Positions 1 through 22,916 of a DNA stretch of 55,007 bases are shown here, in pieces. The notes beneath the pieces were generated by a model. That model was not told where the DNA came from and ran no database searches. It saw only the letters and a list, made by a program, of their open reading frames with translations. The stretch lies in assembly GCA_020348885.1 (NCBI GenBank), contig CP070755.1:1730779-1785785 (forward strand), read 5' to 3'. Both the position numbers and the translations under genes were made by a program. Source of the DNA: Candidatus Coatesiibacteriota bacterium. Lineage in GTDB: Bacteria; RBG-13-66-14; B26-G2; WVWN01; G020348885. Numbering within the stretch: the stretch's first letter is position 1; each line of letters starts with the position of its first letter.

Positions 1-1023
1 GGTTCGAGTCCTGTATGGTCAGCCACGACTTACCGCGGCCCGAGTCCCGGCTCCGAGCCGGAGAATCAGGTAGTTATGGGCCTGGCCGAGTCGTACGGCT
101 TCATAAGCGCCATTTCCTTCCACTCTTACGGCGAATACATACTCAAACCCTGGTCGTACATCGACGATTACACGGACGACGACGAACTCTTCGACGATAT
201 GATGGCCGTAATGAACGAACAAATCTACGAACACTTGGGCCATTATTATACGACCGGCAATTCGATGGATACTCTTCACTACTTAATGAACGGCGAGTTT
301 TCCGACTATATGTACGGTGAGTTCACCACGCTCGCGGTTACTGTCGAACTAAACTCGAGCGGCCAGGGCGGTTTCTATCCGGACGAATACTGGATAGAAC
401 CAACGTGCGAAATGATGAACGACGTTTTAATCGCTTGGGCTTCCCATTTCTACGACGACGCGACCGGAACGGAAATCGTTTACTTCACCGGGGAGTGGAA
501 CGAGAGACTGGTCGAGCTCTCATGGGACGTATCCGAGAGGTCGACGTTCGCAGGTTTCAACCTATATCGAGAGCCGGGCGACGGTTCCGGTAAGACTTTG
601 ATTAATGAGGTGTTAATAACCGGCGAACCTCCTTTTAAATACCTGGACACCGAGTCGTCGCCGGCGCTCTCGTACGATTATTACCTGGAAGCGCTGGACG
701 AATCGGGGGCAACGACGTCATACGGCCCGGTCCACCTTGACGCCCTCGGAGGGACGAAGACCGTTTTCGCCCTTTACCCGACGAGGCCGAACCCGGCCCG
801 CGACGTAGTGGCCTTCGGTTTCACCGTGCCAGAAGCGACCGACGGCGAGTTAGCCGTTTACGACATAACCGGCCGCAAGGTCGAAACGGTGGCCGAAGGC
901 CCCTTCGACGAGGGATACAACGAATATACGGCCGACCTATCGGACCTGCCGTCGGGCATTTACGTATATCGGTTGGTCGCCGGAACGGATTCCGCGGCCA
1001 AGAAGATAGTCGTGAACCGGTAA
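1..1023 (+). CDS. Secreted M14 zinc carboxypeptidase, 5'-truncated by window edge
   Basis: The reading frame is open from base 1, so the N-terminal half (signal peptide and HxxE zinc motif) lies outside the window. The visible part has the third zinc-ligand His in the SFHSYGE motif and the catalytic Glu in TVELNSSGQGG, both typical of peptidase family M14. A fibronectin-like segment follows, then a type-A C-terminal domain: a PNP motif, VYDITGRKV, and an end in GIYVYRLVAG...KKIVVNR. This tail is known from FlgD-Ig/T9SS-type secreted proteins. The next gene is a close paralogue along the whole visible length, so this is a tandem duplication. It probably acts outside the cell on peptides. A clear terminator follows. 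Confidence 0.88.
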   Translation, partial: GSSPVWSATTYRGPSPGSEPENQVVMGLAESYGFISAISFHSYGEYILKPWSYIDDYTDDDELFDDMMAVMNEQIYEHLGHYYTTGNSMDTLHYLMNGEFSDYMYGEFTTLAVTVELNSSGQGGFYPDEYWIEPTCEMMNDVLIAWASHFYDDATGTEIVYFTGEWNERLVELSWDVSERSTFAGFNLYREPGDGSGKTLINEVLITGEPPFKYLDTESSPALSYDYYLEALDESGATTSYGPVHLDALGGTKTVFALYPTRPNPARDVVAFGFTVPEATDGELAVYDITGRKVETVAEGPFDEGYNEYTADLSDLPSGIYVYRLVAGTDSAAKKIVVNR

Positions 1024-1208: not shown

Positions 1209-2984
1209 ATGAAATCGATCACAGGCTTACTGATTATTACCCTCACACCATTAATATTCGCGTCGGCCGCATCCGACGTCGTAAGTTGGGCCCGGGTTTA
1301 TACCCCGACGGAAGACGCGTTCGAGTCTGTCGTGTACCGGCACGACCTGGACATAGCTTCGGGCCGGCGCGCCGAATACGTTGAAGTAATCGCGCCCCAA
1401 TCGAAGCTGGACGCCATTGGATACGCGTACGAATACCTCCAATACGATTGCCTTTCGCCCGAGTCCTTCGCCGGCCGCGGATACGCCGGGTACCACAACT
1501 ACGACGAACTTTTAACCGACCTGAACGCGCTGGCCGACAAGTACCCGGACATATGTACCCTTACTAATACGGGACAGGGCCACGTCGGTCTCGGCGACAT
1601 CTGGCTACTCAAGATATCCGACGACGTGGCCGAGGACGCCACCGACGAAGCGGACCTGCTGATAACCGGCGTACACCACGCCCGGGAACCGATGTCGCTA
1701 GAAGTCCCGCTGGCGTTCGCCCAGTATCTGTGCAACAACTACGACACCAAACAGGGCGTCCAGGACGTCGTGGATAAATTGGAATTCTACATAATGCCGT
1801 TGATGAACGTCGACGGTTACGTTTATGATGACGTGGAAGGCGAACGGAATTACTGGCGTAAAAACGGCTACGACTGGCCGGGCGAAGAACCGTACGACTT
1901 CGGTAGCGGTAGAGGTACCGGCGTGGACCCGAACCGGAATTATACGTATATGTGGGGTTACGACGACTACGGGTCGGACTCGGACCCGTACGGCCAGACT
2001 TACCGCGGCCCGAGCGCCGGGTCCGAACCGGAGAACCAGATAGTAATGGACCTGTCCTGTGAGAAGCGTTTCAAAGCCGCGATAAGTTATCACCAGCACG
2101 GCGAGTTAATCCTGAGACCCTGGGGTTACATCGACGCTTACACCGACGACGACGATAAATTCGTCGAGATGTCGGAGGTTATCAACGACGTTATAAACGA
2201 ACACGGCCGGGACTATGAAATTATCGCCGGTTGGGAGTTCTATAACACCAACGGCGACTTCGTCGACTACATGTACGGCGAACACGGCGTCCTGGGAATA
2301 ACGATAGAACTAAACTCGTCGGGTCAGGGCGGCTTCTACCCGGACGAGTCGTGGATTGAACCGACGTGTAATATGATGACGGACGCGATGATGGCCTGGG
2401 CCGAGTGGTGTATTAACGAGTTCACCGACGTGGAGCTCGATTACTTCACCGCCGAATGGAACGACGGGTCCGCCGAGCTATCGTGGGACGTATCCGACGG
2501 TTCGACGGCCGCCGGTTTCAATTTATACCGGGAGCCGGACGATGGGACCCGTAAAACCCTGGTAAACAGCGAGCTGATCTCCGGAGAACCTCCGTATAAA
2601 TACGTGGACGCCACCGCGTCGCCGGCGGTCTCGTACGATTACTATCTGGAAGCGTTGGACGGAACGGGGGCCGCGACCACCCACGGCCCGGTTCACCTGG
2701 AAGCGTCGGGAGGAACCAAAACCGCGTTCGCCCTGTACCAAACAACCCCGAACCCGACGGCGGGCGCGGCGATTTTCCGTTTCTCGGTCGCCGACGACTC
2801 GGACGTCGAGCTAACCATCTATGACATCTCCGGGCGTAAAGTACTAACGGTCGCCGACGGGCCGTTCGCAACCGGCGAGCACTCGGTTGCCGCCGACCTT
2901 TCGTCGATAGCTCCAGGCGTTTACGTATACAGGCTTATCGCTGGCGGCGAAAACGCGGCCAGAAAACTAGTCGTAACGCGGTAA
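1209..2984 (+). CDS. Secreted M14 zinc carboxypeptidase with type-A C-terminal sorting-like domain
   Basis: This 591-residue protein starts at an ATG preceded by AGGAGA and has a signal peptide (about residues 1-20). Zinc ligands are His157 and Glu160 (HARE) and His295 (SYHQHGE); the catalytic Glu367 lies in TIELNSSGQGG. All M14 catalytic landmarks are therefore present. A fibronectin-like segment (about 410-500) and a type-A C-terminal domain (about 505-591: PNP, IYDISGRKV, GVYVYRL, ending in LVVTR) follow. In Bacteroidota such tails direct type IX secretion; here that role is inferred. It is probably an exported carboxypeptidase that scavenges peptides. It is the intact copy of a tandem pair and has its own promoter and terminator. 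Confidence 0.93.
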   Translation: MKSITGLLIITLTPLIFASAASDVVSWARVYTPTEDAFESVVYRHDLDIASGRRAEYVEVIAPQSKLDAIGYAYEYLQYDCLSPESFAGRGYAGYHNYDELLTDLNALADKYPDICTLTNTGQGHVGLGDIWLLKISDDVAEDATDEADLLITGVHHAREPMSLEVPLAFAQYLCNNYDTKQGVQDVVDKLEFYIMPLMNVDGYVYDDVEGERNYWRKNGYDWPGEEPYDFGSGRGTGVDPNRNYTYMWGYDDYGSDSDPYGQTYRGPSAGSEPENQIVMDLSCEKRFKAAISYHQHGELILRPWGYIDAYTDDDDKFVEMSEVINDVINEHGRDYEIIAGWEFYNTNGDFVDYMYGEHGVLGITIELNSSGQGGFYPDESWIEPTCNMMTDAMMAWAEWCINEFTDVELDYFTAEWNDGSAELSWDVSDGSTAAGFNLYREPDDGTRKTLVNSELISGEPPYKYVDATASPAVSYDYYLEALDGTGAATTHGPVHLEASGGTKTAFALYQTTPNPTAGAAIFRFSVADDSDVELTIYDISGRKVLTVADGPFATGEHSVAADLSSIAPGVYVYRLIAGGENAARKLVVTR

Positions 2985-10500: not shown

Positions 10501-11391
10501 CTACTTGAAGCTGGCCTTGATGCCCCCCAGGGACATAGGCTGGATGCCGGTGTCAGGCGAAATCCCATCGAGGGCCAATTTATACACGTAGTCAGCGTTG
10601 AGTTCATAGACCCAAAGGTAATCGCCGTCCCACTCGCATCCGTCTAAATCCCCGTCTATCACGTCCGTTACGTCGTACGAAAAGGCCGGGGCGGAAACGT
10701 CGGGAACGCCTGAGGTCGTGTTATAAACGTATATCGTTTGTGTAGGAGTACCGCGAGCGCATACGAATAAGTAATCGTCTTCATAATAACCGAGACCCGG
10801 TATCGACCCATCGGAAACTACCACGCCTAAATCAGTCCAAGTTACGTCCGACGTGAGATCCGTCATAGTCGCGTACGCAATTTGCCCGTCGGTATTCGAG
10901 ACATACACGATCGAATCGTCGTTGTCGTAGGCGACGCCGAAAATCACTTCCGTCGTCCAGGTGGAGGGACCTTCGACAGCCCCGACTATACCGGCGGCTT
11001 CGGTGTAAGTTTCTAAGTAGTTCGAGACGTAATCGCCTACGATAAAGCCTTCCTGAGCTTCGAAGTATCCTATGTCGTCGGTCGCGTCCCCGTCGGTAGT
11101 TTGTATATAACCCGTACCTAACGTCCCGTCTTGGCCGAATTCGTATAAACCGTAATTGGAAGTACCCCAATCGGATAGCTACAGGTTGAAGTCACTACCG
11201 TTGAATACGATTCCGATACCGAATCCTTGGTTAGGGCCCACATACGGCCAGCTGGTCATAACACCAACGTCCGACCGCGAGTAAAAAGACCCCACGTCGT
11301 ACGTCTCGACTACGCGGGCGGATAAATTACCGGCGCCGGCCGCCGACACGATCAACAAAACCGCTGCTATTAAGACCAATGCTTTCCCCAT
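10501..11391 (-). pseudogene. Secreted beta-propeller-like protein interrupted by one in-frame amber codon
   Basis: A signal peptide (MGKALVLIAAVLLIVSAAGAG) begins at the ATG at 11391, preceded by AGGAGG. The frame meets TAG at 11179-11181 (codon 71) and then stays open for 225 more codons to 10501. The neighbour at 11525-12430 is a paralogue that aligns across the break: its N-L-W-I-S-D-W-G corresponds to N-L-stop-L-S-D-W-G here. The stop thus replaces a conserved Trp by one base change (TGG to TAG). The rest of the frame shows no decay. It ends in MSLGGIKASFK, a tail shared with two other secreted proteins in this window. It may be a recent pseudogene, a readthrough gene or a sequencing error. 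Function unknown. Confidence 0.8.
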
Positions 11392-11479
11392 CGTTTTCCT
11401 CCTGTTTACCGGTTAAAGCGGACTATAAATGTTCGCCAACATTAACAAAGCACTTGGCACAAATCAAACGTTTCATAAC

Positions 11480-11503
11480 GAAAAGGGGCCTCTCGGCCCC
11501 TTC
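11480..11503 (-). terminator. Terminator after intact paralogue
   Basis: The minus-strand stem AAGGGGCC/GGCCCCTT with a 4-base loop is followed by TTC. It lies about 20 bases after the stop codon at 11525 and separates the two paralogues. Confidence 0.8.
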
Positions 11504-11524
11504 AACTACCGTTATCGATGGTGT

Positions 11525-12430
11525 TTACTTGAAGCTGGCTTTGATGTTACCCAGAGACGCCGGCGTTATGTTCGTATCGTCAAGCCCGAGGTCGAATTCG
11601 ATAACGTAGTCGGGTTCGCTCTGGTCGAGTAACCAAAGGTGTTCGCCGTCCCATTCGCAACCGGCGATACTGCCGTCAGGATCCAAGAAGCTGTTTAAAT
11701 CGAATGTGTACGCAGGATTAACGACATCCGGTACACCGACGTCATTGACGTTAAAGACATACAGGGTATTGGTCCACGGGTCGCTTAATCTGGCAACACC
11801 GAAAAGGTATCTACCTTCGGCTGTACGGCTTGGTGCGTAATACCCCAAACCGGTAAAGTTACCTACTCCGTCGCCCACGTGGAGTTCCGTCCACGTTACG
11901 TCAGTCCCGTAGTCGACATAAGCCCCGTACGCGATATAGTCGGACTGGCCTACGTATATCAAGTTATTATCTTCGTTGCTGTAGGCTACACCCCAGGGCT
12001 CACCCCAACCCGGAGGGCCGACCGACGAACCAACTATACCGGCATCATCGTAGAAGTCTATACGGTTGTCGTAATAATAACCGACCACCCACAGCTCGTC
12101 GTCGATCATATACGCGCAGTCCTGGGTCGAACCGTCGTCTATCGCTGGTATAAATCCAGAAAGCACGGTACCATCGCGGTCGTGTTCATAAAAACCGTAT
12201 GAGGCACCCCAGTCGGATATCCAGAGATTACCCGCTCCTATGCCCTCGTAAGCGATAGCGACACCAAAGCCGTAATCCGAAACAAGATAGTCCCATCTCT
12301 GGATTTCCGTAACAACGCGGCCACTATACTCCGGTTTGTCGCCGCCTACCGTGAATTCCGAGCGCGTTTGAGCAAACGCGACGGAAGTAGCGATTACGAA
12401 AAGGACCGCTAACGTGATTACCTTCCTCAT
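11525..12430 (-). CDS. Secreted beta-propeller-like protein with SLGxIKAxF tail
   Basis: This 301-residue protein has a signal peptide (about residues 1-20, ending VAFA-Q) and an AGGAGG ribosome site. The mature protein contains repeated blocks in the style of 'G-x-Y-x-x-D-x-V-W-V-x-G-Y', 'W-G-V-A-Y-S-N-E-D-N' and 'A-G-C-E-W-D-G-E-H-L-W', suggesting a six- or seven-bladed beta-propeller of the kind found in secreted binding proteins. I do not recognise a named family. It ends in ASLGNIKASFK, shared with 10501-11391 and 22083-22916. It is the intact copy of a tandem pair and has a good promoter. Confidence 0.78.
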   Translation of the reverse strand: MRKVITLAVLFVIATSVAFAQTRSEFTVGGDKPEYSGRVVTEIQRWDYLVSDYGFGVAIAYEGIGAGNLWISDWGASYGFYEHDRDGTVLSGFIPAIDDGSTQDCAYMIDDELWVVGYYYDNRIDFYDDAGIVGSSVGPPGWGEPWGVAYSNEDNNLIYVGQSDYIAYGAYVDYGTDVTWTELHVGDGVGNFTGLGYYAPSRTAEGRYLFGVARLSDPWTNTLYVFNVNDVGVPDVVNPAYTFDLNSFLDPDGSIAGCEWDGEHLWLLDQSEPDYVIEFDLGLDDTNITPASLGNIKASFK

Positions 12431-12476
12431 GGTAAACCTCCTATCCTTCGGTTAACGTTACGTGTAACTACGGAGT

Positions 12477-12505
12477 ATTCTAACAACGCCGGAGGGATAA
12501 ATCAA
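12477..12505 (-). promoter_or_regulatory. Promoter of intact propeller paralogue
   Basis: On the minus strand TTGATT (12500-12505) and TAGAAT (12477-12482) are separated by 17 bases. The predicted start is near 12470, about 40 bases before the ATG. Confidence 0.6.
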
Positions 12506-12565
12506 CCCAAAAAACGGAAAAAGGTTTTTAAAAACGATCATTGCAACCGACAGCTGATTTCCCCT

Positions 12566-12595
12566 TTGCCGGTTTACCGTTTGATATGATATACT
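12566..12595 (+). promoter_or_regulatory. Promoter of tamB-like gene
   Basis: TTGCCG (12566-12571) and TATACT (12590-12595) are separated by 18 bases, with TGA directly before the -10 (extended -10). The predicted start near 12602 is about 50 bases before the GTG at 12654. Confidence 0.55.
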
Positions 12596-12653
12596 CCCGC
12601 CGGTACACGTTAAACCTTAAGGGCTGTAAAGCCGTTTAATCGACGAGACATTT

Positions 12654-15600
12654 GTGTTCAGGACTGTAAAAAAAGTAGCCGGCGCCGTTTGGCGCGGCGT
12701 TAAAGCCGCACTTTACTTCGTCCTTCACCTGTCGAAGTGGACGTTCCTCTTCATTTTCCTCGGTGTCGTGTCCATCGTAGTAATCTTCTGGGCCTTCTAC
12801 AGCCGGGGTTACTTCCACGAGTTGGTCGAGTTCGCCATCGAGAAGTACTTAGGCAACTTCACGCAAACCCAGGTCCGGGTTGACCGGGTCGAAGGTCCGC
12901 TCTTCACCGGGATAGATATCTACGGTTTCGCCATCGGCAACGGCCCGTCCATCGAAGACGACGGCTGCGCCGTCACTGTGGACGAGATTCACGTGAAGTA
13001 TAATCCGCTCCCCTTCTTCGTTCGCGACTTCACCATCGATGAAGTCTATCTGGTACACCCCCAGTGTATGCTTCGCCGCGACGACGACACGGGACGCCTG
13101 AACCTGGCGCGAATCTTCGGTCCGAAGGAGGAAAAGAAGAAGGGCCGAGGTAGTTACTTCACCATCGAGCACGTCGAGATGGACGACGCGTTCTTCATAA
13201 TGTTCCTGAACAGCCCCATATACAGGTTCGAGGACGCTCACATCGAAACGAAGTTCACGAAAGCCAGGGGCGCCGTGTTCCTGGAACTGGGCGATTGTTC
13301 AGTATATCTCCCCCACTTCGACCAGTGGATACCGACCTTCGGCAACGGCGACATGGCGATAAACGCTCGGCGCATACGTATGGATATGTTGGAAGTCGAA
13401 ACGCCCACCACCACGATAATCACCGACGGTTTGATAAAGATGCCGAAAGGCGGGCGAACTCATCTCGACCTGACCTTCGACGCCGACACCATCGACCTGG
13501 GCGAGGTGGACCAGGGGACATTCGACGACCCGCTCCCGACCTTCGGAACCGGTTCGTACTACGGCCGCTTATACGGCCCGACTAATGATTTAACCCAGGA
13601 AGGTGTACTGAACCTCCCAGAGGGGTACCTTTACGGTTTCGATTGGGAAAACTTATCAGCAGATTATACGTTCCACATCTCAGATAGATACCTATCCGTT
13701 AACGAGGTGTCCGGAACAATGGACGGTATGCCGGTAAGGTTCCAGATGGATATGTACTTCCCCGACGGCGGGCCTCCCGAATATTATGGCATCGCCGCGC
13801 TTTCGGGTGCGGACCTGGGCAAATACGTACGTAGCGGTTTCCTCGACTCAGACATAAACGTTTTCGCCGAGATAACCGGCCGGGGTCTGTCGGCAAGCGA
13901 GCACGACCTTTACTGCTTCGCTGAATTCGAAGCGGGGCGAATAGGCCCGTTAATCGTTGACGGCGGCCGGGCCGACTTCCGGTATAGCCTTGGCAAGATA
14001 GAGCTCCACGACGTCAACTTCGAGATGGGCGACGGGGGCATCACAATTCTTGGGGAAGCCGATGCCAAAACGGTGGACATTGCCGTAAACGCCGTGGACG
14101 TACCGCTGGAACGGATACGAACGGGTGACACCGCGTCGGCCCCGGCGGGGACGTTTTCCTTTGAAGGCGTAATTCAGGGCGATAACAGGTACCCGTCGTT
14201 CGACGGCGGACTTTTACTCAAGGACTTCGAGTACGGGCCGGTCCGGTTCGATCTGGCCCGGTTCGACGGAGTCTGGGAGGAGTACGGACGCGCTAACGAA
14301 GGTGAACTCCACGCGATGTTCTGGGGCGGCGCCCTGAGCGGTTTTGAATTGAGCGCCGGACGGGTGGATATAACCGTCGACGAGGACCGGCTAACCGCCC
14401 GGCGCGGCCGTATAAACGTAGACGAAACCAACTACGTAGACTTCAAGCTGGACTATCTCCTCAACGAAAAACTCCTGGGGATCAATCGGCTGGACGTAAC
14501 GTACTCCGGTGGAACAGCATCGCTGGACGGACCCCTATATCTTGACATGGCCGGCGGCCGTTACAGTCTGACCGGCGGCGACTTGATTTCCGGTGACAGC
14601 TACCTATCGTTCGAGGGGACGTATATACCGACCGGTAGGAAATACGAATTCGAAGCGCGGGCCGGCGAGATACGCTTGGGCGACGTTATACCGTACCGGG
14701 AGGGACTGGCCGTCGACGGTCGTCTGACGGAACTCGCGGTCTCGGGCGACGGAACGATGGCCGACCCGCGCCTGGAAGGGCGCATCCGGGTAGACGACTT
14801 GGCCGTCAATAACGAATACTTCGAATACGTCGATGGGACGATACATTTTACCGACGGGTCTTTTTTCGTGGAAAAGCTCGCGGCTTCCACGTACGACGGA
14901 GAACTGACAGTCGACGGCATACTGCCGGTCAGCGTCTTGCGGGGCGAGGGAAAAGACGTCGTGAGTTTAAACATAGTCTTTTCCGACTTCGACGCGCGTA
15001 TGATAAACGCGGCCGTGGACACCGAAGTAGTGGACAGCGGCTTAATCGACGGGACCGTAACCATAACGGGGACGGCGGGCGATATGACCGCTGGCGGCGC
15101 CCTCGTATTCAACGACCTCGTCCGGGACGACGCGGAGTTCGCCCGGGGGCGCCTCGACTTCGCTTACGCCGACCGCGAGTTTACGATAAAGGAATTCTCT
15201 CTGTCCGAAACTACTAACGCGAACCTTGTTGCGACCGGAACAATACCCTTCGACCTATCCGTACGCGACGGTGGGAGTCCTTTCGGCGGCGAAATCGAGC
15301 TGGAGTTCGTATTGAACGACCTGGGGCTCGCCCTTGCTAACCTATTTACAGACGAAATACTCGTTACCGGCGGCACCACCGACGGCAGGGCGTCCATAGA
15401 CGGGACGTTTGAAAAGCCAAATATCCACGCCGAGTTCACTTTGACAGACGGCGCCGGGTTCGTGCGGACTTTGCGCAACAACCTGTCGGGGCTGGAAGGG
15501 GATGTAATCTGGGACGAAACCGGCCTCCGGTTCGGTTCGGTTGCCGAACCCCTCAATTGTGCCCTCGACGAAGGTTCCGCCGTCGCGTACGGACGCATAT

Positions 15601-16613
15601 ATATGAATGGCATGAAAGCCGAATCTATAGAAGTTCACGCGGAATTGGACAACTACGTTATTAAAGCGTTGGGCGGCATACAGGCTAAAGGCGACATCAG
15701 CGTGGACGTAACCGGGCCGGCTTCGAAGCCGCTGATAATCGCGGAAGTGGACGTGGACAACGCGCTGATAGCGATACCTTTCGGCGGCCCGAGCGGCGGC
15801 GAGACTTACGGCGCGGGCGAAGAAGCCGTTGACTTCGTCGCGACGATTACGGCTGACCGGGGCGTATGGCTCCGCAATAGCAGCGCCGATATAGAGTTCT
15901 CAGTCGATATGGTCGTTAAAAGGGAAAACGGGCGGACCGTTTACGTAGGTGAACTGGAAGCCGTCCGCGGTAAGTACTACTTCCTGCAGCGCCGCTTCGA
16001 AATAGAACACGCATACGTCAAGTTCGTAGGAGCCGAGAAGATGAACCCGCGGCTCGACATTCTCGGGTCGATAATCATAAGGGGCGAACGTGACGAAACG
16101 CCGGACGCGACGGTTTACATTGAGATTAAAGGTACGTTGGAGGAACCGGAATTGGCTCTTAGGTCGCCGGAATATCCCGGTTTAACGCAAGACGAGTTGA
16201 TGTTGATGCTCGCGCTTAACGTAACCTGGGACGATTACCAGAAGATGGGCGGAAGCGACATAGCGAGTAAAGAAACGAGAGAGTACCTGGAGAAGTACGC
16301 GTCCAACGAAGTGTCGAGGCTCCTCCAGCGCGAGACCGGGATAGACGTCTTCAAAATCGAGACGACCGGCCTTACGGGGACCGGCACCGAGACCGGCGTA
16401 GAGGCGACGGTCGGCAAATACGTAACTTCCGATTTGTACCTTACTTATACCGGCCGTTACTCGGAATCGGAACAATACGGAACGAAAGAGTACGCCCAGG
16501 CGGTGGGCGTCGAATACCGACTACATCCGGGGATATACCTATACGGCGAGACCGAGCAAGAGGAAGAAGAGAGGAAATACGGAATCGGTTTGAAGTTTAT
16601 CCATAAATATTAA
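12654..16613 (+). CDS. tamB: TamB-like translocation/assembly or lipid-transport protein (DUF490)
   Basis: This 1319-residue protein starts at GTG. A single membrane anchor lies at about residues 28-50, then a very long region of repeating beta-strands (AsmA/TamB type) up to the C-terminal TamB/DUF490 domain (about 970-1319). That domain carries [15 protein letters not shown], a [14 protein letters not shown]-like segment and a final beta-barrel-like stretch ending IGLKFIHKY. TamB proteins span the periplasm as a hydrophobic groove and are linked to outer-membrane protein assembly or phospholipid transport. The length matches the family. No BamA/TamA-type partner is found in this window. A Trm112-like small gene follows 20 bases downstream. 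Confidence 0.88.
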
Positions 16614-16633
16614 CGAAAGGAACGGGGAGAGAA

Positions 16634-16795
16634 ATGTTGGATAAGGAACTATTAGATATACTCGTGTGCCCCGACTGTAAGGGTGAGTTGGACTATCGGG
16701 AAGACGAAGAGCGGTTGATATGTAAAAAATGCGGCTTGAAGTACCCTGTCCGTGACGGTATTCCCGTGATGTTAATAGAAGAAGCGGAGAAGTAA
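16634..16795 (+). CDS. Trm112 family small zinc-ribbon protein
   Basis: A 53-residue protein starts at ATG 16634 after GGGGAGAG. It begins [19 protein letters not shown], has a second Cys pair (CKKC) at about residues 30-33 and continues [13 protein letters not shown], which is the hallmark of the Trm112/UPF0434 (YcaR-like) family. The four Cys probably bind zinc. In bacteria these proteins are small partners of unclear role, often beside LPS genes such as lpxK/kdsB. Here it sits between tamB and the heptose genes gmhA-rfaE1, 20 bases after tamB, in agreement with an envelope context. Confidence 0.9.
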
Positions 16796-16862
16796 ACGGT
16801 AATCTACGACGCTTTACAGGTCACAATAAACGGTTCGTTCGCCATAGTCCCCGCTTTTCCTT

Positions 16863-16891
16863 TTGCAAATCGCGCTTAAGTACTTTATAAT
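16863..16891 (+). promoter_or_regulatory. Promoter of gmhA-rfaE1-pyrF operon
   Basis: TTGCAA (16863-16868) and a perfect TATAAT (16886-16891) are separated by 17 bases. The predicted start is near 16898, which lies at or after the upstream ATG at 16897 and so favours ATG 16924 as gmhA start. Confidence 0.7.
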
Positions 16892-16923
16892 CGCGCATGT
16901 CTTTCCGAAGCAATCGGGGGACT

Positions 16924-17502
16924 ATGGACCCTACCGATAGAATCAGATCCGAACTGGAAACCACAGCGAAAGTGATAGCCGATTCGGCCCCGGCCGTCGC
17001 CGGGCCACTTGCCGAACTGGCCCGGGTCGTCGCCGAGCGCCTACGGGCCGGCGGGAAACTCCTCGCGTTCGGTAACGGCGGGTCCGCCGCCGACGCTCAA
17101 CACCTGGCCGCCGAATTCGTCGTTCGGCTCGGGCGGGACAGACCCGCGATGGCGGCCGTCGCCCTCACCACCGACACGTCGATTCTTACCGCTAGCGCCA
17201 ACGATTACGGTTACGAAGAAGTGTTCGCGCGCCAGATGGAAGCGCTGGGTCGGGCGGGCGACGTAGCACTCGGGTTATCCACGAGCGGTAACTCGGAGAA
17301 CGTACGTCGGGCGCTGGTACGTGCTCGCGAACTTGAGCTTTATACCGCCGCGTTCCTCGGTGCCGGCGGCGGTACAATAGCCCCCGTCGTCGACCTAGCG
17401 GTCGTTGTCCCGTCGGACGACACGCAGCGAATACAAGAAGTACATATCGCAATGTGCCACGCCCTCACGTCATTCGTTGAAGACATTACCGAAACGGATT
17501 AA
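16924..17502 (+). CDS. gmhA: D-sedoheptulose-7-phosphate isomerase
   Basis: A 192-residue SIS-domain protein that makes D-glycero-D-manno-heptose 7-phosphate, the first step of LPS core heptose synthesis. Family motifs: GNGGSAADAQHLAAEFV (phosphosugar loop and catalytic Glu), LSTSGNSENV, and RIQEVHIAMCH with the catalytic His. I chose ATG 16924, which has a GGGGG ribosome site 3 bases upstream and gives the usual family length. An earlier in-frame ATG at 16897 falls on the predicted transcription start. It is followed by the heptose kinase gene in the same operon. Confidence 0.93.
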   Translation: MDPTDRIRSELETTAKVIADSAPAVAGPLAELARVVAERLRAGGKLLAFGNGGSAADAQHLAAEFVVRLGRDRPAMAAVALTTDTSILTASANDYGYEEVFARQMEALGRAGDVALGLSTSGNSENVRRALVRARELELYTAAFLGAGGGTIAPVVDLAVVVPSDDTQRIQEVHIAMCHALTSFVEDITETD

Positions 17503-17539
17503 TTACATCCCCGCGGTCCCGGACCGGCTGGAGGTTACT

Positions 17540-18541
17540 TTGAAAGAGGAAATACTCGAAACCTTGGGGAAAATACCGTCGGTAAACGTCCTAGTTTTCG
17601 GCGATTTAATGTTGGACCACTTCGTGCACGGCGACGCGGCGCGACTCTCGCCGGAAGCGCCGGTTCCGATAGTCCAGGTGAGAGACGACGTCTGGCGCCC
17701 CGGCGGCGCAGCCAACGCCGCCGTGAACGTAATAACACTTGGTGCGTCGGTCGGCCTCGTGGGCGTAGTCGGCGAAGATATGTACGGCGAACAACTACGC
17801 GCGATAATCGAAAAACAAGGTATAGAAACGTCCGGTATTCTATCGATACCGGCTCGCGATACCACGTACAAGGCGCGGGTCCTCGCGTCCCGGCAGCAGG
17901 TCGTCCGGATCGACCGGGAAACGGCCGACGATATAACGACAGACGTAGCAGGCGAAGCTATAAACGTCTTTGCTGAAATACTCGATGGAGCCGACGCGGT
18001 TATACTCTCCGATTATGGTAAGGGATTAATTACCGCTTCTACCGCCGGTAAGGTAATCGAACTGGCACGGGGTAAAAACAAAATAATAACAGTTGATCCG
18101 AAGGACCAGCACTTCACGCTATACAGCTATGTGACGTCGCTTACGCCGAACCACCACGAAGCGGCCAGGGCCGTGGGCGCTAACGACGCTTACACGGGCC
18201 GCGAAGAGTCACTCGATAAAATAGGCAGACGTCTCCTCGATATGGTGGAAAGCGACTCGGTCCTTATAACGTGCGGCGAACGCGGAATGGTACTATACGG
18301 CTCCGACGGTTCGACGGAACGGGTACCCACCCGGGCCCGCGAGGTTTTCGACGTGGCCGGCGCCGGCGATACGGTAATCGCCGCGTTCACCGCCGCGTTG
18401 GCCGCCGGCGCGACCCATGAGACGGCGGCCCATCTCGCCAACTTCGCCGCGTCGGTCGTAGTCGGTAAGGTCGGTACCGCCGCTGCAGCGCCCGACGAGA
18501 TAACCCGCGCCGTAAACCTGTTCTACGAGGAAAACGAATAA
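17540..18541 (+). CDS. rfaE1: D-glycero-beta-D-manno-heptose-7-phosphate kinase (RfaE1/HldE kinase domain)
   Basis: A 333-residue PfkB/ribokinase-family protein that phosphorylates heptose 7-phosphate at C1. Signatures: VFGDLMLDHFVHGDAARLSPEAPVP at the N-terminus, the PGGAANAAVNV block, SDYGKG, VDPK, LTPNHHEA, and the GAGDTVIAAFTAAL anion hole with catalytic Asp. It corresponds to the kinase half of HldE; no nucleotidyltransferase domain is fused. The best start is TTG 17540, 5 bases after GGAGG. A frame extends further upstream into gmhA but has no ribosome site and no homologous residues. It follows gmhA, so the two consecutive heptose steps are in one operon. Confidence 0.9.
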   Translation: MKEEILETLGKIPSVNVLVFGDLMLDHFVHGDAARLSPEAPVPIVQVRDDVWRPGGAANAAVNVITLGASVGLVGVVGEDMYGEQLRAIIEKQGIETSGILSIPARDTTYKARVLASRQQVVRIDRETADDITTDVAGEAINVFAEILDGADAVILSDYGKGLITASTAGKVIELARGKNKIITVDPKDQHFTLYSYVTSLTPNHHEAARAVGANDAYTGREESLDKIGRRLLDMVESDSVLITCGERGMVLYGSDGSTERVPTRAREVFDVAGAGDTVIAAFTAALAAGATHETAAHLANFAASVVVGKVGTAAAAPDEITRAVNLFYEENE

Positions 18542-18543
18542 CT

Positions 18544-19425
18544 ATGCCCGTTCACTTCGCCGACGAACTGAAAGAAACGGTTGACGCCAAGGACAGCCGT
18601 TTGGTAGTAGGGATAGACCCGGACCCGGATTTACTTCCGCCCGAAGTCGAAGGGACGACGCCGATAGAACGCGTTGACGAATTCGGCCGCCGCATTCTCG
18701 AAAGCATAGCTACCGAAGCGGCCGCCGTTAAATTCCAATCGGCGTTCTACGAAAGGTTCGGGCCGCCGGGCGCCGAAACGCTAGCCGCGCATCTCGAAAC
18801 GGCTCGCGGCCTGGGGCTTATTACCATCCTGGACGCAAAGCGGAACGACATCGGCAATACTGCAGGGGCGTACGCCGCGGCATACCTTGGACAGGACACG
18901 CCGACGCCGTTCGACGCGCTCACGGTATCCCCGTACCTAGGCGCCGACAGCCTCGAACCCTTTGTCAAGGCGGCCGCGGATACGGGCCGGGGCGTATTCG
19001 TACTCGTTAAGACCTCGAATCCGGGGTCCGGTGACTTCCAGGACGTAGAAACCGTGGGCGGCGGGCCCCTGTATTTACGCGTCGCAGAAACCGTCGCTAA
19101 ACTTGGGAAATCCGGCGTAGGCGAATGCGGTTATTCGTCGGTCGGCGCGGTCTGCGGCGCCACCTACCCGGAGTTGTTGACGGGACTCCGCGAAGCGATG
19201 CCGGAGCAGGTTTTCCTCGTCCCCGGCGTCGGCGCCCAGGGCGGCTCACCCGACGAACTGGCGCCGGCGTTCGACCAAGATGGGTTCGGCGCTCTGGTAG
19301 CAGCGGCCCGAAGCGTTATCTACGGGTACCGGGAACACGGCGGCGATTACGCCGTAGCGGCCCGAGAAGCGGCCGCCACCCTCCGAATTCGAATTAACGA
19401 AGCGACCGCAGCCGGACATAAGTGA
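18544..19425 (+). CDS. pyrF: Orotidine 5'-phosphate decarboxylase
   Basis: A 293-residue protein that makes UMP, the last step of de novo pyrimidine synthesis. The type 2 subfamily signature is present: VVGIDPDPDLLP at the start, FQSAFYERFG, and the catalytic DAKRNDIGNT block (Asp-Lys-Asp triad). Its length fits type 2 (about 270-310 residues). The ATG lies 2 bases after the rfaE1 stop and the stop codon overlaps the next gene (GTGA), so translation is probably coupled across the operon. Confidence 0.94.
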   Translation: MPVHFADELKETVDAKDSRLVVGIDPDPDLLPPEVEGTTPIERVDEFGRRILESIATEAAAVKFQSAFYERFGPPGAETLAAHLETARGLGLITILDAKRNDIGNTAGAYAAAYLGQDTPTPFDALTVSPYLGADSLEPFVKAAADTGRGVFVLVKTSNPGSGDFQDVETVGGGPLYLRVAETVAKLGKSGVGECGYSSVGAVCGATYPELLTGLREAMPEQVFLVPGVGAQGGSPDELAPAFDQDGFGALVAAARSVIYGYREHGGDYAVAAREAAATLRIRINEATAAGHK

Positions 19426-20114
19426 TCTATTCTATCTTCGAATACATCTGCCACCAACTCGCGGATCGGGCTCTGGTCGTCGGCGGGTATTATATGCCTT
19501 GTTGCGCCCGGTGCGCCGGAATCTATTGCGGTTTCGCCGCCACCGCGGCGTATTATCTCTTCGTTTACAGGCGCGGGTTCAAGCTGTGGCCGGACCGATG
19601 GCTAGCCTCGGTTACTGCCGTCGTTTTAGTAGTTAACTTCGTCGAGTACGCGGCAACGTGGTGGTTCGGCTTTTTCGACGGACTAGCCGACTACCCCCGG
19701 TTCGTATTAAGCCTTTCGCTGGGATGGGCCGGGTTCGTTCTCCTCGCGGCCACGGTTACCTTTCTGCAGTTCCCGAAAGAAGACCGTCCGAGGGATACCC
19801 TGACCGGCATCTTACCCGGTCTCGTCCTTTGCCTGGCAGTCGGCCTTCTCCCGTTAACAAACTCGAAACCGGCGTGGTATCTCCTCTCCTGGGCTGCGGC
19901 CGCCGGGATGGTAACGTTCTACGGATTCTTCAACTACTTCCCGGTCGCGCTACTCGTTCGGGTTATGGGATGGAAACCGCGAACGGTCGGTTATTTAGCC
20001 ATCCTGACCGTAATCGCAGCAGTCCTCGTCGGCGAATGGTTTTTACATCGGGCGTTGTACGACGACATTACGAGCATAGTACATGTAATCTACGAACTGA
20101 CCGGGTTAGCTTGA
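19422..20114 (+). CDS. DUF2085 family membrane protein
   Basis: A 230-residue membrane protein with about six hydrophobic helices. The N-terminus carries the DUF2085 signature: F-E-Y-I-C-H-Q-L-A-D-R, then the Cys-rich C-C-A-R-C-A-G-I-Y-C-G. The conserved His and Cys residues suggest a metal or redox site at the membrane, but the family function is unknown. Its GTG start overlaps the pyrF stop codon by 4 bases. It is the last gene of the gmhA operon before the rpoD promoter. Confidence 0.85.
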   Translation: MIYSIFEYICHQLADRALVVGGYYMPCCARCAGIYCGFAATAAYYLFVYRRGFKLWPDRWLASVTAVVLVVNFVEYAATWWFGFFDGLADYPRFVLSLSLGWAGFVLLAATVTFLQFPKEDRPRDTLTGILPGLVLCLAVGLLPLTNSKPAWYLLSWAAAAGMVTFYGFFNYFPVALLVRVMGWKPRTVGYLAILTVIAAVLVGEWFLHRALYDDITSIVHVIYELTGLA

Positions 20115-20131
20115 CGTAAACGGGGGGGAGT

Positions 20132-20160
20132 TTGACTTTTCTCGGCCTGTATGCTAAATT
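20132..20160 (+). promoter_or_regulatory. Promoter of rpoD
   Basis: TTGACT (20132-20137) and TAAATT (20155-20160) are separated by 17 bases, with TGC directly before the -10 (extended -10). The predicted start near 20167 lies downstream of an ATG at 20164, supporting the start at 20197. Confidence 0.6.
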
Positions 20161-20196
20161 AATATGATATTTAAGCGGCGGGTTTTAAGGGGGTTT

Positions 20197-21981
20197 ATGG
20201 CCGTTAAATCCGGCGAATTGAAGCATAAAAAAGAGTCCCTTAAAGCTGTGAAAGGCCTTATCGAAAAGGGTAAGGAGAAGGGACATATAACTTACGAAGA
20301 GCTCAACGAAGCACTTCCGGAGGACGTTATTCTCAGCGACCAGATAGACGATATTATGGTGATGTTCGACGAAATGGATATAGAGGTCGTCGACGGGTCC
20401 AAGGTCGCCGTAAAAGAATCCGGTGAGAACTCGGAGAAAGCGGAGGAAGGCGGAGCTCCCGGTTGGGAAAAACGATCACAACCGTCCGTCGGGCGGTTGG
20501 ACGACCCCGTACGTCTTTACCTTCGGGAGATGGGACGCGTTCCGCTTCTTTCGCGGGAAGGGGAAGTCGCCCTAGCCAAGAAGATTGAACGCGGACACCG
20601 CAAAGCCCGTCGCGGTGTCTTCAGTATATATCTCGTGTTCGACGAAATGGGAATTCTATCCCAAACCGTAAAAGAGGGCCGGGTTAAAATCGAAGATGTA
20701 CTCGTAGTAAATACCGAGGGCCGGCTTCCGCTATGGAAACAACGCGAATTGTCGGCGAAAATACTCGAAACCACCGATAAAGCCAACGAACTCCGTCAGG
20801 AACTGGACAAAAACTACGATATTACAAAGTCGTCACCCAAAGGGTCTAAAGCCGCTATAAAAGCCCGGGAGCGAATCGGCGAGATAACGGCCGAGGTCGT
20901 CGATCTATTCGAAGGCTGCGGGTTCAGTACGAATCAGATGGACGTTTTCGTCAACAATATCGACGTCGTACGGCAGCGCATTCTCGAGAACCTTAAAGAG
21001 GTGGAGATAATACAGCGGCGGCTCGGCCTGGATAAGCGGGAACTAGGCGGCCTCGCGAGGAAGATAAAGGCGGGCGAGAAAGTGGATTTATCCGCCGTAT
21101 CGGGCAAAGACGTTAAGCCGGAAGATATAGTAAACGCGGATCGCGAAATTAAAAACGCGTTCCGCCGCAATCATAGGATCGAACAAAAGGTCCAGATGCC
21201 GTACAGGGAGTTTCTCCAGATAATGCGGCGGGTAAAGGCCGGGCAACGCGAAGCTTACGACGCGAAAATGTCGTTGGTGAAAGCGAACGTACGGCTCGTC
21301 GTCAGCATAGCGAAGAAGTATACGAACGGCGGTTTGCAGTTCCTGGACTTAATCCAGGAGGGCAATATCGGGTTGATGCGGGCAGTCGATAAGTTCGATT
21401 ATAAGAAAGGTTATAAGTTCAGTACTTACGCGACGTGGTGGATAAGGCAGGCGATAACGCGGGCCATCGCCGACCAGGCTCGCACTATACGTATCCCGGT
21501 TCATATGATCGAAGCTATCGGGAAAGTAGTACGCGCATCCCGACAGCTTATACAGGAAAACGGCCGGGAACCGCTGCCCGAGGAAATAGCCTCCCGGATG
21601 GGGATGAGCGTAGAGAAGGTACGGCGGGTTTTGAAAATCGCGCAGGAGCCTATCAGCCTCGAAACGCCTATCGGCGACGAGGAGGATACGCATCTCGGCG
21701 ATTTCATAGAGGATAAATCCGTTATCAGCCCGGCGAAAGCCGCCGCGTACGCTTTACTCCGCGAACAGATGGAATCCGTACTGGGTACCTTAACCAAACG
21801 AGAAGAGCGGGTTCTGCGATACCGTTTCGGGCTGGGCGACGGGATAACCCGGACATTGGACGAAGTCGGCGCCGTGTTTAACGTAACCCGAGAGCGCGTC
21901 CGCCAGATAGAAGCGAAAGCGCTACGGAAACTCAGACACCCTACGAGATCGCGTAAAGTTAAGTCGTTTCTCGATTTATAA
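20197..21981 (+). CDS. rpoD: RNA polymerase primary sigma factor (sigma70 family)
   Basis: The housekeeping sigma factor, 594 residues from ATG 20197, which follows AAGGGGG. Region 1.1 is visible in residues 10-70 ([13 protein letters not shown]). Region 1.2 is [22 protein letters not shown]. Region 2 has [17 protein letters not shown], which opens and contacts the -10 element. Region 3 follows, and region 4.2 contains [20 protein letters not shown], the -35-binding helix-turn-helix. All RpoD parts are present. It explains why many promoters here match TTGACx-N17-TAxxxT. It has its own promoter and a strong terminator. Confidence 0.96.
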
Positions 21982-21997
21982 TCGGTCGGTTTACGTT

Positions 21998-22029
21998 AAA
22001 AAACGGGGTTGCGGCCCCGTTTTTTTTTA
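21998..22029 (+). terminator. Terminator of rpoD
   Basis: A stem ACGGGG/CCCCGT extended by an A-run/T-run pairing surrounds a TTGCGG loop. It is followed by nine T. Confidence 0.88.
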
Positions 22030-22037
22030 TGTATAAT
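22009..22037 (+). promoter_or_regulatory. Promoter overlapping rpoD terminator, for PD40 propeller gene
   Basis: A perfect TATAAT (22032-22037) lies 17 bases after TTGCGG (22009-22014), which is the terminator loop. The -35 match is weak (3 of 6). The predicted start is near 22044, about 40 bases before the GTG. Confidence 0.45.
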
Positions 22038-22082
22038 CCGGTTGTTAGGTTATCGGAAAGCGTTTAAATCTAGGAGGTAAAA

Positions 22083-22916
22083 GTGAAGATGCGTTTATTC
22101 TTAATCGCGTCGGTATTGATTATAGCCGCCGGCGCTTACGCCGACTGGGCGTACGTGGAGAACCTAGGGGCGCCGCCTAACACGGCGGCTGCGGAGAAGC
22201 AACCGGGGATAAACGGGAGCGGGACACTACTCGTTTATAATTCGGGAGGCAACCTTTACTTGACGCAGTGGAGTGGCGGAGCCTGGTCCGCGCCGTCGGC
22301 GTTGCCGGCTTCTATCAATAACGGTTCGTCGAACGCAACGCCCTGCTGGAACGGCAATATGCTTTACTACTCGTCCGACCGGGCCGACGGCGAAGGCGGT
22401 TGGGATTTATGGTCGTCCGAGTGGAACGGCACTACGTTCGCGGCGCCGACGAATCTAGGCCCGGGTTTGAACACCACCGCCAACGAAACTTCGCCGGCCT
22501 TAAACCCCGCTGGCGATACGCTTTACTTCAGGAAAGGCACGGACATATTTTACGCCACCAAGTCAGGCGGTCCCTGGAGCAACGTCCAGGGTACGGGCAT
22601 CGGGACCGGAAGGCCCGCCGGTTATATTGACGGAACCCTTTACTTCTCCGACGACAGAGCTGGCGGAGAAGGCGGATTGGATATATGGCTGGCCGTCGGC
22701 AGCGGCAGTTCGTTTTCCGCCGCCGTAAACCTGGGTACTGATATTAACACGTCTAACGATGAACTGGGCGGCTCGTGGACCACGGATAAACGGTGGATGC
22801 ACTTTTCATCGGACCGGCCGGGCGGCGAAGGCGGCTATGACCTCTACCGCGGCCGGTTCACTATGACCGCCGTGAAAGCCGCTTCGTTAGGTAAAATCAA
22901 AGCGACGTTCGAATAA
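22083..22916 (+). CDS. Secreted PD40 (WD40-like) beta-propeller protein with SLGxIKAxF tail
   Basis: A 277-residue protein starting at GTG 22083, 5 bases after AGGAGG (the ATG at 22089 is possible). A signal peptide covers about residues 1-20. Three clear PD40/TolB-like repeats are visible: YYSSDRADGEGGWDLW, YFSDDRAGGEGGLDIW and HFSSDRPGGEGGYDLY, with weaker ones in between. It is probably a secreted beta-propeller that binds another protein or a glycan. The C-terminus ends in ASLGKIKATFE, shared with two other secreted proteins here, while the propeller repeats themselves are of a different type. Confidence 0.88.
   Translation: MKMRLFLIASVLIIAAGAYADWAYVENLGAPPNTAAAEKQPGINGSGTLLVYNSGGNLYLTQWSGGAWSAPSALPASINNGSSNATPCWNGNMLYYSSDRADGEGGWDLWSSEWNGTTFAAPTNLGPGLNTTANETSPALNPAGDTLYFRKGTDIFYATKSGGPWSNVQGTGIGTGRPAGYIDGTLYFSDDRAGGEGGLDIWLAVGSGSSFSAAVNLGTDINTSNDELGGSWTTDKRWMHFSSDRPGGEGGYDLYRGRFTMTAVKAASLGKIKATFE

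Follow-up and report, generated by a model that had tools for sequence, protein, structure and literature searches.

Cargo of the type IX secretion system (T9SS) is known to carry C-terminal domains (CTDs), of which reviews recognize only types A, B and C and which they confine to Bacteroidota (PMC10202324). The type A CTD (TIGR04183/PF18962) is an Ig-like domain of about 70–80 residues with motifs A–E, is read by PorV and is usually cleaved by PorU. Alternative T9SS signals exist beside it: the type B and C CTDs, of about 100 residues (PMC10202324), and the short CTDs of Prevotella intermedia, which retain motifs B, D and E in 43–55 residues (PMC11969387). Type B cargo is linked to dedicated PorP/SprF shuttles (PMC12618676).

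Here we describe a tail that resembles the type A CTD in being C-terminal and modular and in occurring many times per genome, in the same genomes, on Sec-exported carriers. Unlike that domain it has only 10–16 residues, gives no sequence match to it and was never seen with it on one protein. It has none of the anatomy of the type B, type C or short CTDs either. PEP-CTERM, GlyGly-CTERM, MYXO-CTERM and LPXTG are short C-terminal sorting signals that, like the tail, are associated with choice-of-anchor bodies, but they are tripartite (motif, transmembrane helix and basic end), whereas no transmembrane helix precedes the C terminus here and a soluble propeller or jelly-roll body runs straight into a polar 16-residue motif. 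Encapsulin and dockerin cargo peptides offer a looser comparison, as modular C-terminal peptides with possibly one receptor; encapsulin cargo, however, is cytosolic and dockerins are whole domains, whereas the tail carriers have Sec signal peptides. The tail resembles an address label for sorting proteins that has not been described before and is probably used by, or alongside, the T9SS.

Three tailed genes in one window

The window, by which we mean the whole 55,007-nucleotide stretch of DNA analysed, comes from a 2.6-Mb Coatesbacteria genome and contains three copies of the tail and no others (Table 1). An earlier note on this DNA had described three secreted proteins ending in MSLGGIKASFK, ASLGNIKASFK and ASLGKIKATFE. 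We recover all three endings and signal peptides, but an in-frame TAG at codon 71 breaks the first gene, whose signal peptide and tail can still be read. The paralogue of this gene, which is also on the minus strand, has tryptophan at this codon. A Pfam scan of the paralogue gave no match, and Foldseek aligned its predicted structure with NHL/WD-type propellers. The third gene most likely starts at ATG 22089 rather than at GTG 22083. As the note had also proposed, two M14 peptidase genes of the window carry the type A CTD, with PF18962 matching both.

Table 1 Tail-bearing genes of the window, with two type A CTD genes for contrast
Feature	Position in window	Strand	Basis
Intact exported beta-propeller protein, 301 aa, ends ITPASLGNIKASFK	11525..12430	-	Propeller residues ~53-280 in AF2 model
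Sec signal peptide MRKVITLAVLFVIATSVAFA of 11525..12430 protein	12371..12430	-	Sequence
16-residue tail motif NITPASLGNIKASFK region; core SLGNIKASFK at 11528-11557	11528..11575	-	
Broken paralogue, same propeller family as 11525..12430, ends IQPMSLGGIKASFK	10501..11391	-	TAG 11179-11181
Tail motif of broken copy; core SLGGIKASFK at 10504-10533	10504..10551	-	
Exported PD40 beta-propeller protein, 275 aa from ATG 22089 (most likely start), ends VKAASLGKIKATFE	22083..22916	+	PF07676, AF2 model
Sec signal peptide MRLFLIASVLIIAAGAYA of 22083..22916 protein	22089..22142	+	Sequence
Tail motif of PD40 protein; core SLGKIKATFE at 22884-22913	22866..22913	+	
Contrast: M14 peptidase, partial in frame, T9SS type A CTD ~787-1014	76..1023	+	PF18962 E 9e-11; TIGR04183
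Contrast: M14 carboxypeptidase, T9SS type A CTD ~2748-2975	1209..2984	+	PF18962 E 1.4e-7

A strictly C-terminal motif of about 16 residues

We searched the DNA of the same genome for the pattern [ST][LFW]Gx[hydrophobic]Kxx[FY]x followed by a stop codon, using the reversed pattern as a control. The tail was found at 67 places and the control at none. In its short form the tail comprises ten residues, [ST][LFW]Gx[IV]KAx[FY][RK], and the 64 distinct tails of usable length yield the longer consensus [TS][SN][IV]xP[AT]S[LF]Gx[IV]KAx[FY][RK]. Because positions that the search left free, or nearly so, are also conserved (I/V at −14 in 61/64, P at −12 in 51/64, A at −4 in 49/64 and R/K at −1 in 50/64), the motif is about 16 residues long.

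The position of the tail is strictly C-terminal. We counted 201 copies of the core [ST][LFW]Gx[IV]K[AS] within 14 residues of the end of an open frame and none at any other position, over 659,132 residues in all; most loci read had been fetched for their tail, which inflates the first of these numbers and leaves the zero unaffected. No family covering the tail was present among the 25 most frequent families listed in Pfam and NCBIfam scans of the tail proteins. A literature search, thin on subscription papers and preprints, found nothing on the motif or on C-terminal signals in these phyla.

Distribution across phyla

That other exported proteins of the group would share the tail, as the earlier note implied, is borne out. 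All 14 Coatesbacteria genomes examined carry it, in 1–128 copies. Genomes of the order to which the window's genome belongs have 67–128 copies and those elsewhere in the phylum fewer by the strict pattern, which undercounts the other Coatesbacteria class, where the core SWGxIKA is kept and the last residues vary. Scanning named genomes with a stricter pattern that allowed tryptophan located the tail in Candidatus Eisenbacteria, Krumholzibacteriia, Effluviviaceae, Zixiibacteriota, a Gemmatimonadota metagenome-assembled genome (MAG), Coatesbacteria (CP070633.1) and other bacteria, with the consensus PVExx[ST]WGxIKALYR.

This tryptophan form (SWGxIKALYR) is present in 70 of 72 genomes of three other phyla, Eisenbacteria included, with 20/20, 5/5 and 45/47 by phylum against 0–2 reversed controls per genome; many of the genomes used in this analysis are incomplete MAGs, and counts from related genomes are not independent of one another. 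The 5/5 refers to the phylum that includes the Gemmatimonadota-named MAG. The pattern spans at least five phylum-level groups. Within the Eisenbacteria phylum, one group (G082–G091) has only 0–5 tails, and the rest mostly have 5–44.

One tail on many unrelated bodies

Nearly all intact, unmasked tail proteins of the window's own genome start with a Sec signal peptide. The exceptions comprise fragments, the interrupted gene of the window and loci with an N-masked 5′ part. Sec-type N termini were called, by a rough heuristic of hydrophobicity and start codon, in 167 of 206 strict-tail open reading frames compared with 443 of 3,087 others (odds ratio, 26).

The bodies between signal peptide and tail are mutually unrelated folds. 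Among 61 tail proteins of this genome we found 13 with PD40 repeats, 9 with CBM96/DNRLRE and 5 with Big_5 Ig domains, as well as a GDSL lipase, a cleaved-adhesin domain and others; the bodies of 93 tail proteins from other phyla include beta-helices, NHL and FG-GAP propellers, CBM_20 and LTD. The tail is therefore conserved apart from the rest of the protein, as had been suspected from the three window genes, and is found on propellers, jelly rolls, Ig domains, beta-helices and a lipase. Several bodies carry NCBIfam names such as choice-of-anchor J or V, DNRLRE and relatives of MYXO-CTERM/PEP-CTERM proteins, and in other organisms the choice-of-anchor J and V and the MYXO-CTERM/PEP-CTERM-related bodies bear other C-terminal sorting domains.

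The earlier note had itself offered a simpler explanation, that the tail is the final strand of a beta-propeller. Some tails do directly adjoin the last PD40 strand. Both the range of other folds and two AlphaFold models refute this explanation, to which we give practically no chance. In the model of 11528–12430 (mean pLDDT, 72), residues 285–301 score below 50, with a short helix at 293–299; in that of 22089–22913 (mean pLDDT, 87; blades above 90), residues 261–275 score below 50; in both, the tail lies outside the propeller. We also rejected the C-terminal beta-signal of outer-membrane beta-barrels, which is the last barrel strand: the bodies here are soluble propellers, jelly rolls and Ig domains.

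Gene duplication might alternatively have spread a non-functional remnant of an ancestral gene. Part of the tail genes are indeed clustered paralogues, with 35 of 67 lying less than 3 kb from another tail gene (9.4 expected). Against such a remnant, the near-invariant residues persist despite unrelated bodies and differing codon choice, and across at least five phylum-level groups. All 30 CBM96 proteins fetched by their domain rather than their tail, from 13 of the 14 Coatesbacteria genomes, have the core or a close variant at their end, with no tail swap among them. We consider the remnant very improbable.

Co-occurrence with the T9SS

The note had suggested asking which transport genes co-occur with the tail; those of the T9SS do. 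Each Coatesbacteria genome has 23–67 type A CTDs together with SprA-like, PorU-like and PorV-family genes, with several of the SprA and most of the PorU matches falling below curated cut-offs. SprA is matched in 14/14 of these genomes, 12 of them over the cut-off. Among genomes selected for the tail alone, SprA is matched in 32/32 (29 over the curated cut-off) compared with 0/14 control genomes, a co-occurrence that is non-independent across related genomes and lacks a T9SS-negative comparison group. In the two tail-selected genomes where SprA matched only weakly, PorV-family genes exceed the cut-off. Tail proteins share with T9SS substrates a Sec signal peptide and the presence of the translocon SprA in the same genome. 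From this co-occurrence across related phyla we conclude with moderate confidence that the T9SS is involved. A further point against the link is that tail numbers range from 1 to 128 per Coatesbacteria genome, whereas the T9SS parts are constant.

Tail and CTD were kept apart on all proteins compared: none of 225 tail and 103 CTD proteins carries both, with CTDs called by TIGR04183/PF18962 or by a home-made HMM of the genome's own CTDs. The family lists from scans of 61 and of 93 tail proteins did not include Por_Secre_tail, and the type B family was absent among the 25 most frequent families listed in the NCBIfam scans. In place of the conserved domain of about 100 residues that defines types B and C, the tail proteins have a conserved region of 10–16 residues. 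The tail proteins are also shorter (median, 279 aa) than the CTD proteins (median, 647 aa), and peptidases are commoner among CTD bodies than among tail bodies. The two sets meet in the choice-of-anchor J body, which occurs with the tail and with the type A CTD in the same genomes, and in a Krumholzibacteriia tail protein whose whole body aligns at 48% identity with the N-terminal portion of a CTD protein from Eisenbacteria.

Gene neighbourhoods gave no link between the two. In the window's own genome the nearest PorV-family gene lies at least 8.6 kb from any tail gene; tail genes thus differ from type B cargo, for which such linkage is typical; linkage of this kind is not typical of type A. 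Tail genes and CTD genes were close in 5 of 33 cases (4.0 expected; not significant), and 20 regions of this genome with CTD genes showed no tail swap between paralogues beyond adjacency. The genome has about 12 PorV-family genes: one sits next to the PorU gene, and three are no more than 2.4 kb from a type A CTD gene. A CTD gene and the CBM96 tail gene that follows it are present in two near-identical copies in this genome (G000:C1:510857-511743 and G000:C1:1395021-1395907); their CBM96 tail proteins are 99% identical, and the pair is a recent duplication or an assembly repeat.

A putative sorting signal

The earlier note had raised a sorting or anchoring signal, and the strict C-terminal position, the Sec signal peptides, the choice-of-anchor bodies and the breadth of occurrence support it; the function itself we infer, as we do receptor recognition, T9SS dependence and final location. 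We hypothesize that the tail serves as a sorting signal, short, modular and C-terminal, with a receptor that most probably belongs to the T9SS or is coupled to it; to this reading we assign slightly better than even probability. The cargo would be Sec-exported, mostly non-enzymatic, beta-rich proteins. The N-terminal signal peptide would carry the protein across the inner membrane, where an envelope receptor may read the last 10–16 residues, [IV]xPxS[LFW]Gx[IV]KAx[FY][RK], outside the folded body and then bring the protein to or across the outer membrane. This receptor would most likely be in, or coupled to, the T9SS of the same genomes, and the tail would then add a second, minimal class of cargo signal to the type A domain of about 75 residues. 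At ten residues, however, the tail is far below the length of any described T9SS signal (43–55 aa for the short CTDs, PMC11969387), which counts against this reading.

The main rival is a docking or anchoring peptide that is independent of the T9SS and bound by a receptor in the outer membrane, the S-layer or elsewhere on the surface, on proteins that arrive there by other means; dockerins and encapsulin cargo peptides are bound in a comparable way. The tail is short, modular, unstructured alone and carried by many small beta-rich bodies; the near-invariance of its S/T, G and K suggests a receptor that binds this peptide specifically, and tail genes are not linked to T9SS shuttle genes. Such a receptor is hypothetical and has no candidate, however, and SprA in 32/32 tail-selected genomes would then be explained by shared ancestry only. 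We regard the docking peptide as rather unlikely, while according it a real share of the probability.

Alternatively, instead of signalling location, the tail could mark proteins for handling by periplasmic quality control, by a chaperone or by a protease that processes C termini. PDZ-type envelope proteases and chaperones typically act on short, exposed C-terminal peptides. Yet the PDZ domains of the Prc/DegS type read nonpolar ends, unlike the positive end of the tail, and the tail marks a defined subset of exported proteins that includes 0/103 type A CTD proteins. We therefore view a handling tag as improbable.

If the tail is a sorting signal, it would name the address of dozens to more than 100 proteins per genome in phyla without genetics, and the surface or exported proteome of Eisenbacteria, Krumholzibacteria, Coatesbacteria and their relatives could be predicted from sequence. 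In some genomes it would serve more cargo than type A (for example, 128 tails versus 33 CTDs). How the T9SS recognizes different signals is an open question (PMC10202324), for which the tail may provide a minimal test peptide; a 16-residue module found on unrelated bodies should be easy to test by fusion. If the tail instead proves independent of the T9SS, it would point to an undiscovered receptor or export route common to several phyla.

Other features of tail loci

The window's own genome (G000) has a good tail motif at G000:C1:77702-77734 (+) that closes an open frame of 34 aa in which no body is visible. A full tail gene lies opposite, at 77896, and the short frame is possibly a gene remnant. 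At G000:C1:1080355-1088875 (L116), five Big_5-type tail genes are clustered, of which that at 1086677 is apparently a degenerate fragment.

One Coatesbacteria family of CBM96 tail proteins contains an in-frame TGA (L282 in G008, L283 in G007 and L289 in G013; also in G010, G011 and G012). The site is identical in the three sequences read (..GG-TGA-GN..GL[VI]EFDL..). It looks like conserved UGA recoding in an exported protein, possibly as selenocysteine.
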